DNA of 64,000 nucleotides from Selenomonas sp. AE3005. GTDB lineage: Bacteria > Bacillota > Negativicutes > Selenomonadales > Selenomonadaceae. The position numbers and the translations under genes were made by a program. The notes beneath the pieces were generated by a model, which was not told the origin of the DNA, did not search any database, and worked only from the letters and a program-made list of their open reading frames with translations. Of the stretch, positions 54,824 to 63,488 are shown piece by piece. How positions within the stretch are numbered: the stretch's first letter is position 1; the number at the start of each line of letters is the position of its first letter. The stretch is from the NCBI RefSeq assembly GCF_000686945.1, contig NZ_JMME01000005.1:124001-188000 (forward strand), written 5' to 3'.

Positions 54824-55045
54824 ATATTAGTCCCTCCCTCAATAATATAAAGACTGTCTAAAGGATAGGAGCCTGCAGTATATACAGAATATTATTAAAA
54901 CTCCTTAAATTATAGACATACTAATATTTTTGAATTTCAACAATAAAACGCTAATTCCTGCTATGGGCTGTAGATTTTGCCGAGTAAAATGGCAAATGAG
55001 GCAGCCTGGCCTGTTCCTGCCGCGCTTGCCTTAAAGAAGGGCATC
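54824..55045. other. Noncoding region between the RND operon and the riboswitch unit
   Basis: About 220 bases. The left part (54840-54955) is AT-rich and must contain the operon promoter: a TATAAT on the minus strand at 54909-54914, but TTGAAA is 20 bases away, so no good -35. A short palindrome TTGAATTTCAA lies at 54930-54940 and could be an operator. I see nothing convincing in 54956-55045. Confidence 0.5.
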
Positions 55046-55074
55046 TTGACAGTGGAATTATGAGATGATATGAT
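55046..55074 (+). promoter_or_regulatory. Near-consensus promoter of the riboswitch unit
   Basis: TTGACA, 17 bases, TATGAT: one mismatch from consensus. Transcription should begin near 55081, exactly where the riboswitch structure starts. Confidence 0.85.
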
Positions 55075-55080
55075 GAAACT

Positions 55081-55216
55081 ACCATAGAGAGTGCGCGAGG
55101 GACAGTCCCGATGACCGCACAGCAACCTACCGGAGGGCAAGGTGCTAAGGACTGAACGATGGGTCATGCTTCTTTAAGAGATAAAAGGCTCATCGAAACG
55201 ATGGGTCTTTTCTTTA
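55081..55216 (+). promoter_or_regulatory. S-box-like SAM riboswitch with terminator
   Basis: The core matches the SAM-I family in order: AGAG, P2 arms GTGCG/CGCAC enclosing GGGAC-AGTCCCGATGA, then AGCAACC, a P3 CCT/AGG stem, and AAGGTGCTAA. P1 is short (ACCAT with ATGGGT, one bulge), and the usual P4 is not obvious, so a SAM-I/IV-like variant is possible. The segment CGATGGGTC occurs twice (55157-55165, 55199-55207); both can pair with GGCTCATCG (55187-55195). The second pairing, followed by TTTT, is a terminator; the first would be the antiterminator. SAM binding should therefore switch the gene off (inference). Confidence 0.72.
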
Positions 55217-55247
55217 TGAGTAAAATCATAAAAGGAGCGGACAACTC

Positions 55248-56240
55248 ATGGGAAAGGAAAATAGGTATATCTATGAAGTGAAGGCAGAGGCGTTTCTCGT
55301 TTACGACAAATCACTCTGCGAAATGGATTCCCCTTTTGTGCAATGGCTGAGGTCAGAGGGGTTCAGCTATGCAGGGAGGGATGGAAATTATGGCATATGC
55401 AGCTGGGCTTATGTCAACATCACCCACAAGATGTATGCATATGGCAAGCCATTTATCCCTATCGTAAAGGAAACAGGAAACCATGCCATAACGATTGATG
55501 AATTCAAAACCATTTATGCCATCTACAAAAAATACGAAGGGAAGAAGATATTCAGCTTTGGCGATGAGCAGGATGAGGAAACTGAGGAAACCTTGGAGAT
55601 GAAAGACCCTTATAAGCCTAATGTACTGAATATGTTAAAGTTTATATGGGAATTGAAGGACAAGCTGAATCAGGAGGAAAGAAAACTCTGCGAACTGAAA
55701 CGGGACTACACGCTGGAGGAATTCAGGGATGTGGTTGCAAAACATATGGGGAAAATAGAATTCTTTCAGCAGACGGCAGAAAAGGCTGGCGTTCCCCTGG
55801 ACCAATATTGCAGGGAATATTTCGACCGCAAGCAGGTGACAGCCGCAAATAGGAACGAGAGTGTTCGGGAGTATTACAGGACTGTATTGAAGAACAGGAG
55901 TCTTTTAGAGGATTGTGCGGAGAACCTTGCTCGTAATTGGTATGCGGCAGAAATGAATTACACGCTGGAGGAATTCAAGGCAGCACTCGCCAAGAAAATG
56001 GAGAAATATGGCGAATTCCAATACCAAGCCAAGGAACTGGGTATCCCCCTCGACAGATTTTGCAGGGCTTATGTGGATTACAAGGAGGCGGAGGACGATG
56101 ATAAGGATGTTCAGCATTCTTATGAGGACCTCTTTTCCAGTGGACACTCTTTTGCCTATCTGGCAGATAATCTGGCCTACACCTGGGATATGATAGGGGA
56201 TAGAGTTTCAGGCGAGAAAATCTCGCAATACTTGAAATAG
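55248..56240 (+). CDS. Unrecognised protein with internal duplication, riboswitch-controlled
   Basis: I do not recognise this 330-residue protein. Residues 1-115 are an unknown domain (YIYEVKAEAFLVYDKSLCEMDSPF, then SWAYVNITHKMYAYGKPFIPIVKE). Residues about 150-320 contain two tandem copies of an ~80-residue unit: DYTLEEFRDVVAKHMGKIEF...GVPLDQYCREYFDRK...LLEDCAENLARNW and NYTLEEFKAALAKKMEKYGEF...GIPLDRFCRAYVDYK...FAYLADNLAYTW. It has no signal peptide or membrane segment. By my count 12 of 16 Arg codons are AGG/AGA, whereas neighbours use mainly CGC/CGT, which suggests horizontal transfer. AAGGAG precedes the ATG. A link to methionine or SAM is suggested only by the leader. Confidence 0.75.
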   Translation: MGKENRYIYEVKAEAFLVYDKSLCEMDSPFVQWLRSEGFSYAGRDGNYGICSWAYVNITHKMYAYGKPFIPIVKETGNHAITIDEFKTIYAIYKKYEGKKIFSFGDEQDEETEETLEMKDPYKPNVLNMLKFIWELKDKLNQEERKLCELKRDYTLEEFRDVVAKHMGKIEFFQQTAEKAGVPLDQYCREYFDRKQVTAANRNESVREYYRTVLKNRSLLEDCAENLARNWYAAEMNYTLEEFKAALAKKMEKYGEFQYQAKELGIPLDRFCRAYVDYKEAEDDDKDVQHSYEDLFSSGHSFAYLADNLAYTWDMIGDRVSGEKISQYLK

Positions 56241-56277
56241 GATTTACGGGCAGGTTTTTCTGTGGAGGAGATTTTGA

Positions 56278-56724
56278 ATGATTAAGATACTTTTTGTTTG
56301 TCATGGCAATATCTGCCGGTCGACAATGGCTGAGTTTGTCATGAAGGAATTAGTGCGCCGGGCGGGGCGGGAACAGGAGATTATGGTGGCGTCCAAGGCT
56401 TGCCGTACTGATGAACTGGGCAGCGATACCCACCCGGGGACAAAAGCGGCTTTGCGTAATCATGGCATACCGTTTACCAGGCGTCAGGCCCGGCAGATAC
56501 AGAGGGCTGATTATGAGGAGTTTGACTACATCGTCGCTATGGATGAGGAAAATATGCGTGACCTGCAGCGGCTGACGGGCGGCGATTCCCGGCATAAGTG
56601 CCAGCTATTGTTGAGCTTTGCCGGGGAGAAACAGGAAGTAGCTGACCCGTGGTACACGGGCAATTTTGAAGTGACTTATCAGGACGTTATGAAAGGTTGT
56701 CAAGCATTACTGGCCAAAATTTGA
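56278..56724 (+). CDS. Low-molecular-weight protein tyrosine phosphatase
   Basis: A 148-residue LMW-PTP: the P-loop C8-HGNIC-R14-S in FVCHGNICRST and the general-acid motif DPWYTG. An ArsC-type role is unlikely because the PTP motifs are standard. Relatives act on tyrosine kinases of capsule export or on other phosphoproteins. It stands before a methyltransferase-like gene and two glycosyltransferase genes. Confidence 0.94.
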   Translation: MIKILFVCHGNICRSTMAEFVMKELVRRAGREQEIMVASKACRTDELGSDTHPGTKAALRNHGIPFTRRQARQIQRADYEEFDYIVAMDEENMRDLQRLTGGDSRHKCQLLLSFAGEKQEVADPWYTGNFEVTYQDVMKGCQALLAKI

Positions 56725-56761
56725 TATAATGTTAGGAAAAGACTTTTAAGGGGGGAGCATA

Positions 56762-57706
56762 TTGCCGGAAAAAATAAAGCCGGAGCTGCTGCAATTTTTG
56801 CAGCCCGGGGAACTGCCACTTAAAATTTTGGTGGTGGAAGATTTGGGATATCTGCCCCGGCTGCGGCAAATGTTTCCCTGTGCGGAACTTTATGCAGCGA
56901 CTGCTGACAGTGACGCCATGCTCGACTATCAGGATTTAGGCGTCCACTTTCAGCTGGTGAATTATCTGGCCGAGCGCCTGCCCTATGCGCAGGAATTTTT
57001 TGATTACATTATTTCAGATTTGACTCTGGAACAGGCCGGCAACCCTCAGGATATTGCTGCCGGCTTTTCGCGTTATTTAAAGGAAACGGGCTCGCTGCTC
57101 ACGAGTTTCCGTAATATCCGCCACTACAGCCAGCTCACGGATTTGCGTGACGGCCATTATTACAATGTGGTGGCGCGCCTGTTTGCCCGGGAGGAATTTG
57201 AACGTCTGCTGTATGCCTCCTATTATAAGATGGTCTTTATGGAGCCGCAAAAGCGGCCGGCTGATGAAAAAACTCTGCAGCAATTTTTAGCGGCAGGTTT
57301 TGCCAATGACAGGGACGATCTCAATACGGAGTTCTGGCTGGTGCGGGCTGACCGGTCAATGCCGGAAATGGCCCTGCTTAAATCCATGTATAGCAAAGAG
57401 GAGCGCCGGCAGTTTTCCACTTATCTGCACCGGATTGAGTACGATGTGGACACTGCGCAGCAGTGCCGCCTGCTTTGGGATTTTTACCAGCAGCATGGTT
57501 TCTTTGCTGACTATGCGGCGGCGTTTATCAAGCAGGCGGTTTTCCACCCGGCGCGTTTTTACCGGCGGCTTATGCAATATTCGCCGGCAGAGATGGCGGA
57601 GATAGGGCTGATGCTGCAGGGGGCACTTAACAACGCCACCACGGCGGAGGAGCAGGAAATGTTGCAGAGCTTATGGCAGGAGTGGCAGGTGAAACAAAAT
57701 GGCTGA
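56762..57706 (+). CDS. Methyltransferase-like protein
   Basis: A 314-residue protein starting at a TTG after GGGGGGAG. The N-terminal 150 residues look like a class I SAM-dependent methyltransferase fold (LKILVVEDLGYLPRLRQMFPCAELYAATADSDAML, then FDYIISDLTLEQAGNPQDIAAGFSRYLKETGSLLTSFRN), although the glycine motif I is degenerate (VVEDLG). The rest is helical. It overlaps the GT2 gene by 8 bases; in this setting it may modify a glycan (inference). Confidence 0.68.
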   Translation: MPEKIKPELLQFLQPGELPLKILVVEDLGYLPRLRQMFPCAELYAATADSDAMLDYQDLGVHFQLVNYLAERLPYAQEFFDYIISDLTLEQAGNPQDIAAGFSRYLKETGSLLTSFRNIRHYSQLTDLRDGHYYNVVARLFAREEFERLLYASYYKMVFMEPQKRPADEKTLQQFLAAGFANDRDDLNTEFWLVRADRSMPEMALLKSMYSKEERRQFSTYLHRIEYDVDTAQQCRLLWDFYQQHGFFADYAAAFIKQAVFHPARFYRRLMQYSPAEMAEIGLMLQGALNNATTAEEQEMLQSLWQEWQVKQNG

Positions 57707-58388
57707 TTTGGCTGATAATAAAATTGCTTTTATTACCTGTGTTAATAGTGATGACTGGTATAGTGAGTGCCGGCTGTATTTGGAAAGCCTTAATATTCCT
57801 GAGGGCATGACTGCAGAATTCATTCCCGTGCAGGGGGCGGCCTCGATGTGCGCCGGTTACAATCAGGGCATGCAGATGAGCAATGCCCGCTATAAGGTAT
57901 ACCTGCATCAGGACACACTGGTGGTCAATAAAAATCTCGTGATGGATTTGCTGAATATATTTGCTGATGAATCTGTCGGCGCGGTCGGGGTGATTGGCTG
58001 CCGCAGCCTGCCGCGCAGCGGTGTATGGTGGGACGGCCTGCGGACTTATGGCCGGGTGCTGCACGCCTGTGAGCCGGAAAGTGTGGTGGATTCCCATTGC
58101 CGGGAGCCGGAGGGCGCATATCAGGAGGTTGAGGCTGTGGACGGCCTCTTTATTGCCACGCAGTACGATGTGCCCTGGCGTGAGGATATTTTTACCGGCT
58201 GGCACCTGTATGATACTTCTATATGTAAGGAAATGCAGCGCCGAGGGTACAAGGTAGTGGTTCCCAATCAGGAACAGGATTTCTGGTGTATCCATTGTCC
58301 GAAAGAAAAGCCCTTGGCAGCAGAGTATAAGGGTTATCAAAAGGCCTTTATCAGGGAATATGGCAGGGAACTTAACCCGGAAGTTTGA
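57699..58388 (+). CDS. Glycosyltransferase, GT2-like (StrF-type domain)
   Basis: A 229-residue single-domain GT-A protein: IAFITCVNSDDWYSECRLYLESL at the start, VYLHQDTLVVNKNLVMDLL (DxD replaced by HQDT, as in PF13712-type proteins), and a terminal WHLYDTSICKEMQRRGYKVVVPNQ. This resembles the StrF-like glycosyltransferase family. It overlaps the preceding gene and precedes a GT41 gene. Confidence 0.8.
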   Translation: MADLADNKIAFITCVNSDDWYSECRLYLESLNIPEGMTAEFIPVQGAASMCAGYNQGMQMSNARYKVYLHQDTLVVNKNLVMDLLNIFADESVGAVGVIGCRSLPRSGVWWDGLRTYGRVLHACEPESVVDSHCREPEGAYQEVEAVDGLFIATQYDVPWREDIFTGWHLYDTSICKEMQRRGYKVVVPNQEQDFWCIHCPKEKPLAAEYKGYQKAFIREYGRELNPEV

Positions 58389-63099: not shown

Positions 63100-63149
63100 T
63101 CTTCAGAAAAATTTTTTCCTTGATAATTGTACACATATATATGAATTGG

Positions 63150-63178
63150 TTGACAGTTACATAATCAGGATTTATAAT
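63150..63178 (+). promoter_or_regulatory. Consensus promoter of the cold-shock gene
   Basis: TTGACA, 17 bases, TATAAT; transcription would start near 63185, leaving a ~47-base 5' UTR. Confidence 0.85.
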
Positions 63179-63231
63179 TATTGTTAGGTCGTGTTTGAGC
63201 GACTGGGAAGTTTCAAGTAGGAGGAATCTCG

Positions 63232-63432
63232 ATGGTAGGTAAAGTTAAATGGTTCAGCGCTGAAAAAGGTTATGGCTTTATTGCTCGTGAAGATGGCGAC
63301 GATGTATTTGTACATTTCTCCGCTATCAATGACGAAGGTTTCAAGACGCTTAACGAAGGTCAGGATGTAGAATTCGACATCGTGGAAGGTGCTCGTGGCC
63401 CGCAGGCGTCTAACGTTGTAAAGACGGCATAA
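63232..63432 (+). CDS. Cold-shock protein (CspA family)
   Basis: A 66-residue OB-fold RNA/DNA chaperone: RNP1 [10 protein letters not shown] and RNP2 VFVHFSAI, start [16 protein letters not shown] and end [11 protein letters not shown]. It binds single-stranded RNA and melts secondary structure. AGGAGGAA precedes the ATG and a terminator follows. Confidence 0.97.
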
Positions 63433-63454
63433 TTTTCTTTATACGCGAAAATGA

Positions 63455-63488
63455 GTCTTCCCCTGAAAAAAGGGGAAGGCTTTTTTTA
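63455..63488 (+). terminator. Terminator after the cold-shock gene
   Basis: Stem GTCTTCCCC / GGGGAAGGC (one G-T pair) with a TGAAAAAA loop and TTTTTTT. Confidence 0.92.

Follow-up and report, generated by a model that had tools for sequence, protein, structure and literature searches.

What does an S-box-like leader RNA control when the gene behind it belongs to no recognised family? This question is raised by positions 55,046 to 56,240 of a 64,000-nucleotide stretch of DNA from Selenomonas sp. AE3005 (the window, i.e. the whole stretch that was analysed). An earlier note, made without database searches, had read the locus as a SAM riboswitch, perhaps of a variant class without an obvious helix P4, in front of an unrecognised and probably acquired gene; the elements that it had named (AGAG, GGGAC-AGTCCCGATGA, GCAACC, AAGGTGCTAA, the duplicated CGATGGGTC and the ORF) were all found where it had placed them. 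Based on sequence comparison we propose, with a probability of roughly three in four, that the RNA is a SAM-responsive OFF riboswitch, a P4-less variant of SAM-I, and that it controls an acquired accessory gene.

The aptamer and its missing helix

The aptamer is built from the following parts.

55079-55165, forward strand: P4-less SAM-I-type aptamer (RF00162, 49.0 bits; own model R2; pair counts on 69 aptamers)
55082-55085/55159-55162, forward strand: helix P1, only 4 Watson-Crick pairs
55091-55095/55116-55120, forward strand: helix P2a, followed by the K-turn
55099-55101/55107-55109, forward strand: helix P2b
55121-55127/55141-55146, forward strand: helix P3
55103-55106, forward strand: pseudoknot strand 1, CAGU, in the P2b loop, 4/4 pairs with 55151-55154
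55151-55154, forward strand: pseudoknot strand 2, ACUG, in J3/4, with only AA between the strand and P1

The identification as an S-box RNA was upheld by the Rfam covariance search that the earlier note had suggested, in which the SAM family RF00162 scored above its gathering value (44.4 bits; E 3.3e-8 in the 64 kb window) and the SAM-I/IV family RF01725 remained below it (34.5 bits, gathering 41.1), and the pair counts on 69 aptamers agree with it. Our own model R2, to the training set of which the window sequence belongs, gives 95.8 bits. P4 is a standard helix of SAM-I and is peripheral to the binding pocket. In the Rfam alignment of the window aptamer its place is left empty, and the helix cannot fit because only the AA separates the pseudoknot strand ACUG from P1. 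Judged from the sequence, P4 is truly absent and not just hard to see, and for this reason the aptamer is filed as a variant and not as a plain SAM-I member. The loss may weaken the binding of the ligand.

The variant is widespread

Genome contigs were scanned with a pattern that describes an S-box lacking space for P4; the sampling is bound to that pattern and consists mostly of metagenome-assembled genomes. The scan returned at least 128 matches including the window, and in at least 96 of them J3/4 has a fitting length. With one exception, the latter pair J3/4 with the P2 loop at 4/4 positions, via differing sequences: among the matches listed, CAAG/CUUG occurs 63 times and CAGC/GCUG 10 times, with others besides, and the CAGU/ACUG of the window is unique. 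About 30 of the 128 listed matches were dropped as ordinary P4-bearing SAM RNAs, other SAM RNAs or chance hits, and some 20 more, mostly actinobacterial forms, were left outside the core set. The lack of an obvious P4 that had been noticed in the window is thereby extended to at least about 75 aptamers of one build with compensatory changes, which have retained the K-turn and all SAM-contact nucleotides and have lost P4. All 17 P4-less loci that were tested exceed the gathering score of RF00162 (49.0-65.4 bits).

When 69 aptamers are aligned, 97% of the cells are paired and both-sided changes occur at 16 of the 25 pairs; the covariation amounts to 0.369, whereas shuffles give 0.137 and slid alignments no more than 0.074. 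The pseudoknot (4 bp) pairs in 100% of the cells, and 3 of its 4 pairs show compensatory changes; P2 is paired in 100% and P1 in 99.6% of the cells, and the base of P3 is invariant or covarying. The K-turn-type internal loop GAG...GAUGA is present in the sequence, and an internal loop in P2 was found in 69/69 aptamers. The motifs AU, AGAG, GCAACC, GGUGC and GAU are invariant or nearly so, and the SAM-contact columns (J1/2 AU and G11; P3 AA/C and UG; P1 AU) are invariant. Contact positions were assigned in part from the SAM-I crystal structure. The contact list was also drawn from the 5-A residues (PMC6890682). The alignment demonstrates the predicted aptamer fold, the invariant contacts and the covariation of the pseudoknot.

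Alternatively, the window RNA might be an ordinary SAM-I riboswitch that was captured together with its gene. In that case P4 would be missing through a local deletion of no consequence, and the complementarity behind the second switch described below would be due to chance. The score above the RF00162 gathering value and the peripheral position of P4 are in line with this explanation. Nevertheless, we consider it unlikely, as the R2 scores in the Negativicutes are split between P4-less members (82-99 bits, about 15 genomes) and ordinary S-boxes (at most 72 bits), and the P4-less build recurs across many gut phyla with a common expression platform; the statistics of the second switch, given below, also speak against it. 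A strict test recovered, in 44 of 93 leaders, a second copy of the P1 strand as terminator arm and, between the two copies, a fully paired complement.

Some Negativicutes genomes hold at least five P4-less SAM aptamers each. In one genus of that class (g87, loci L208-L252), with at least five per genome, they precede N-formylglutamate amidohydrolase genes, the gene of a small HTH-like protein and several orphan ORFs.

Relation to the known SAM riboswitch classes

The window RNA shares with SAM-I (RF00162) P1, P2 with its K-turn, P3, the pseudoknot, all SAM-contact nucleotides and transcription attenuation through an antiterminator and a terminator. It differs in that SAM-I has P4, whereas here J3/4 passes from the pseudoknot to P1 via AA, and in an extra segment behind the terminator that is complementary to the 5' strand of the aptamer. 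The SAM-I/IV family, with which the SAM core is shared, lacks an internal loop in P2 (PMC2864571), which the window variant has. SAM-IV shares the core and the absence of P4, but is described with a shorter turn, with hairpin P5 and with PK-2, a second pseudoknot that involves the P3 loop (PMC6890682); the window variant has a K-turn-like turn, and the P3 loop of the P4-less set is variable in length and sequence (the SAM-IV model was scanned at gathering score with clan competition only). Spermidine-sensing variants of SAM-I, also OFF switches that act by termination, depart from SAM-I in J1/2 and in the internal loop of P3 and are found before polyamine genes (PMC10853860), whereas the P4-less set keeps the SAM-I consensus at both sites; no polyamine genes were seen under P4-less aptamers among the loci listed. 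Since the features of SAM-I/IV and the spermidine variants, and probably those of SAM-IV, differ from those in the window, the RNA, which probably works like SAM-I, is best called a P4-less variant of SAM-I. Within our partial coverage of the literature we found no relevant earlier description of a P4-less SAM-I, and a prior description is possible.

Promoter, terminator and antiterminator

The aptamer is embedded in a compact leader.

55046-55074, forward strand: sigma-70 type promoter TTGACA-17-TATGAT with TG before the -10 (11/12 consensus, extended -10)
55157-55165, forward strand: CGAUGGGUC, 3' strand of P1 and 5' arm of the antiterminator (fold of -12.9 kcal/mol with 55187-55195)
55183-55211, forward strand: intrinsic terminator of 13 bp with loop AAA and a U-rich tail behind (-14.5 kcal/mol)

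The promoter had been described as near-consensus, as it is, and the transcript is expected to start with the first base of P1, at about 55081. The sequence CGATGGGTC is present twice (55157-55165 and 55199-55207), and its complement GGCTCATCG at 55187-55195, able to pair with either copy, doubles as 5' arm of the terminator and as partner of the antiterminator. The repeat-driven switch suspected before thus takes the form of a perfect swap: compared to dinucleotide shuffles, the antiterminator (9/9 complementary) has a z of -3.6 and the terminator, computed for 55184-55213, a z of -5.9. The two predicted structures are mutually exclusive and both stable, and the arrangement is, on their folding, the classic OFF logic of the S-box.

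A predicted second switch behind the terminator

Two further elements separate the terminator from the gene.

55210-55222, forward strand: segment S3, pairs with 55080-55091 (12 bp, one bulge; -10.8 kcal/mol) or with the start-codon region
55230-55237, forward strand: Shine-Dalgarno sequence AAAAGGAG

In many leaders a motif such as CUCUUUAUAGGU lies 3' of the terminator and is complementary to the 5' strand of the aptamer (S5), that is, to the P1 strand, J1/2 and the start of P2. For 67 distinct leaders the duplex of S5 with the leader's own S3 has a mean energy of -11.6 kcal/mol versus -9.3 kcal/mol for permuted pairs (sd 0.28), a difference of 8 sd, and 0 of 20,000 permutations were as low, in a test that ignores relatedness. 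Taken singly, 40 of the 67 leaders reach p<=0.05 against dinucleotide shuffles, as do 34 of the 45 that have a long enough spacer, whereas 0 of 22 ordinary metK leaders from the genus of the window do so. Both results argue against chance complementarity in an ordinary SAM-I leader. The complementarity between S5 and S3 across the P4-less variant is, at the level of pairing energies, well established; for the window itself the duplex is moderately significant (p 0.03 against shuffles).

In many leaders the motif behind the terminator is also able to pair with the Shine-Dalgarno region. The unpaired fraction of the Shine-Dalgarno sequence is on average 0.26 versus 0.35 in shuffles, significantly so in 14 of 52 leaders; in this test the window itself, with a significance value of 0.08, falls short of significance, and a hairpin over its start codon, behind the terminator, is moderately significant (z -2.8). 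A second, translational switch is therefore predicted for the read-through RNA.

The ordinary metK leaders (L001, L004-L024) show a pattern of their own. A conserved GCUGAAUAUG just 5' of P1 complements a segment behind the terminator, at p<=0.05 in 14 of 22 leaders, and might act as a 5' clamp outside the aptamer.

Genes under P4-less aptamers

The first gene of each locus was chosen by rule, and the choice may err. Among the matches listed, metK follows in 13 of the 73 core loci with a gene; in the other 60, about four fifths, the first gene is a different one, and 43 of these 60 encode proteins of at most 160 residues. Small orphan genes make up most of these other targets. Named target families are N-formylglutamate amidohydrolase (also in Negativicutes), ADP-ribosylglycohydrolase, SseB, MORN and MoxR-type ATPase, as well as PriA, named by eye. 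Some P4-less aptamers sit in phages or in an ICE. Nine contigs of a viral collection match a second, related pattern, and a contig from the first viral scan (L156) bears phage tail-type genes. At two loci (L109 and L157) P4-less SAM aptamers lie directly upstream of IS1595-type transposases. Two other targets encode SAM-degrading enzymes, an S-AdoMet lyase (PF23780, L130) and a SAM hydroxide adenosyltransferase (PF01887, L049), which is odd because they degrade SAM while the switch would be a SAM-sensing OFF switch.

These targets bear on the identity of the ligand. The P4-less variant could have exchanged its ligand, for instance for SAH, methylthioadenosine or a polyamine, as has happened in the spermidine variants. 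That the majority of the associated genes lie outside methionine and SAM biosynthesis, that two targets degrade SAM and that spermidine is the ligand of a published variant class of SAM-I (PMC10853860) would all agree with such a change. On the other hand, J1/2 and the P3 internal loop, altered in the spermidine class (PMC10853860), are kept in the 69 aptamers, and we consider a changed ligand improbable. SAM as the ligand fits, because the same variant drives metK in 13 of the 73 listed loci.

The orphan protein ORF330 and its homologues

55248-56240, forward strand: ORF330, orphan protein of 330 residues, with homologues of its N-terminal domain

ORF330 is predicted to consist of an N-terminal alpha/beta domain (about residues 13-97) and a helical remainder with two repeats (residues 153-231 and 237-313, 38% identical). 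The view that the gene is unrecognised stands: Pfam and NCBIfam gave nothing above cut-off, PHROGs and PADLOC gave no match, and neither did tblastn against the records of phages and plasmids; its exact peptides were not found in genome and viral contigs, and no relative was present among 21 congeners and 200 relatives. Scattered Pfam matches to DIX, NikA, NusB and TniQ were below cut-off, and these families were rejected. AlphaFold modelled the full-length protein poorly (pLDDT 51) and the domain alone with moderate confidence as a small alpha/beta fold (pLDDT 78, pTM 0.75). With the domain model, nothing beyond noise was found in the PDB (E 2.8, Z 2.2), and elsewhere only weak matches to small uncharacterised phage proteins (best E 0.07).

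The profile search of the protein proposed in the earlier note led to no known unrelated family, and homologues of the N-terminal domain were found. Two of these lie directly under a P4-less aptamer: L128, from a MAG of the Erysipelotrichaceae, shares about 52% identity, and L057 comes from a Clostridiales MAG. At a third locus, in a Bacilli MAG (L047), the homologue is the third ORF under such an aptamer. Homologues of the domain occur in the Erysipelotrichaceae, Clostridiales and Bacilli. A protein-profile search independent of the RNA yielded seven further homologues, two of them weak. Two of the seven (L240 and L258) are immediately preceded by a P4-less aptamer (79 bits each), and for a third (L260) a SAM aptamer of 46 bits lies one gene upstream; the remaining four have no such RNA within 1.5 kb. 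Across these loci the RNA is associated with the gene. L240 is surrounded by conjugation genes resembling the VirB4, VirB6 and VirD4 types, and L239 adjoins a serine recombinase (all named by eye), and by their sequence context the relatives of ORF330 look like accessory proteins of mobile elements. The suggestion that the protein has a role in SAM, methionine or methylation found no support in the sequence, and its relatives resemble mobile-element accessory proteins.

A common superfamily of the different small proteins under P4-less RNAs was also considered but is not claimed; the profile alignments of 60-70 columns were collinear, and only those between clusters B and C were significant (84%).

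Acquisition and neighbourhood

54964-56747: stretch that has no counterpart in congeners at either flank; the left flank is conserved up to 54963 and the right one from about 56748
56278-56724, forward strand: low-molecular-weight protein-tyrosine phosphatase (PF01451, E 2.7e-35), missing at this site in congeners

The genome of the window has two SAM aptamers, the one in the window and an ordinary one before metK (90.7 bits). The 21 congeners have the metK-type aptamer only. To the left of this segment lies an efflux operon and to the right are methyltransferase-like and glycosyltransferase genes; in congeners these flanks are apart. At 44.5%, the G+C content of ORF330 is below the 50-53% of the neighbouring genes, and none of the other genes compared has a codon fit as low; among 380 genomes of the Negativicutes its domain was found in that of the window only. 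The supposition that the gene was acquired is strengthened by the absence of ORF and aptamer from the 21 congeners and of the domain from the rest of the class. The lower G+C content and poorer codon fit point the same way, as do the relatives found outside the phylum and on mobile elements.

In principle, the switch could have arrived with the gene and be a relict that no longer works in this host. It is a single copy in the genus, its P1 is weak and its pseudoknot is unique among the matches listed. Yet promoter (11/12), antiterminator (9/9) and 13-bp terminator are all intact, the pseudoknot is fully paired with a compensatory change of its own, and the ORF is open and has a ribosome site, which makes a relict very unlikely.

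Behind ORF330, at 56278-58388, the tyrosine phosphatase, a methyltransferase-like gene and a glycosyltransferase follow on the same strand with gaps of less than 40 nt. Because of this layout the riboswitch may also govern read-through into these three genes, and the phosphatase is possibly co-transcribed with ORF330. Two observations concern the surroundings. In congeners (loci L185 and L188), the place that the acquired segment occupies in the window, upstream of the efflux operon, is taken by several small ORFs with VAGG-type leader peptides, possibly bacteriocin-like, and at 63140-63484 of the window the cspA thermoregulator family (RF01766, 84.2 bits) matches over a cold-shock-type gene.

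Proposed mechanism and meaning

The preferred reading, a SAM-responsive OFF switch in front of an acquired gene, can be put into a mechanism. Transcription would begin at P1. When SAM is scarce, CGAUGGGUC (55157-55165) would pair with GGCUCAUCG (55187-55195), so that the terminator is blocked and the gene is transcribed; when SAM is bound, P1 (ACCAU/AUGG) would be held, the 13-bp terminator would form and transcription would halt. In the read-through RNA, S3 on the start-codon region would turn translation off, and S3 on the free 5' strand of the unfolded aptamer would turn it on. The SAM-free aptamer would thus also open the ribosome site, because its 5' strand takes S3 away from the start site. 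ORF330 would then be mobile-element cargo that is used at low SAM. From the comparisons above we infer that SAM is the ligand, that control runs in this direction, that there is a step at translation and that the cargo has this role.

More tentatively, and with considerable doubt on our part, the P4-less aptamers may constitute a separate lineage of SAM riboswitches that is found in gut bacteria, phages and conjugative elements and has a platform of two levels (a terminator, then a switch from 5' strand to ribosome site). The accessory proteins under their control would form a SAM-depletion regulon, and some of them would deal with the loss of SAM, for instance after the action of SAM-degrading phage enzymes.

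Relatives of the RNA and the gene recur together in other gut bacteria and on one or more mobile elements, which points to a little-noticed branch of SAM switches on accessory genes. A natural and widespread P4-less form would test the purpose of P4 in the well-studied SAM-I, and the RNA offers a handle for finding new families of accessory proteins. Moreover, a SAM switch that resides mostly on orphan and mobile genes would extend SAM sensing past the supply of methionine.
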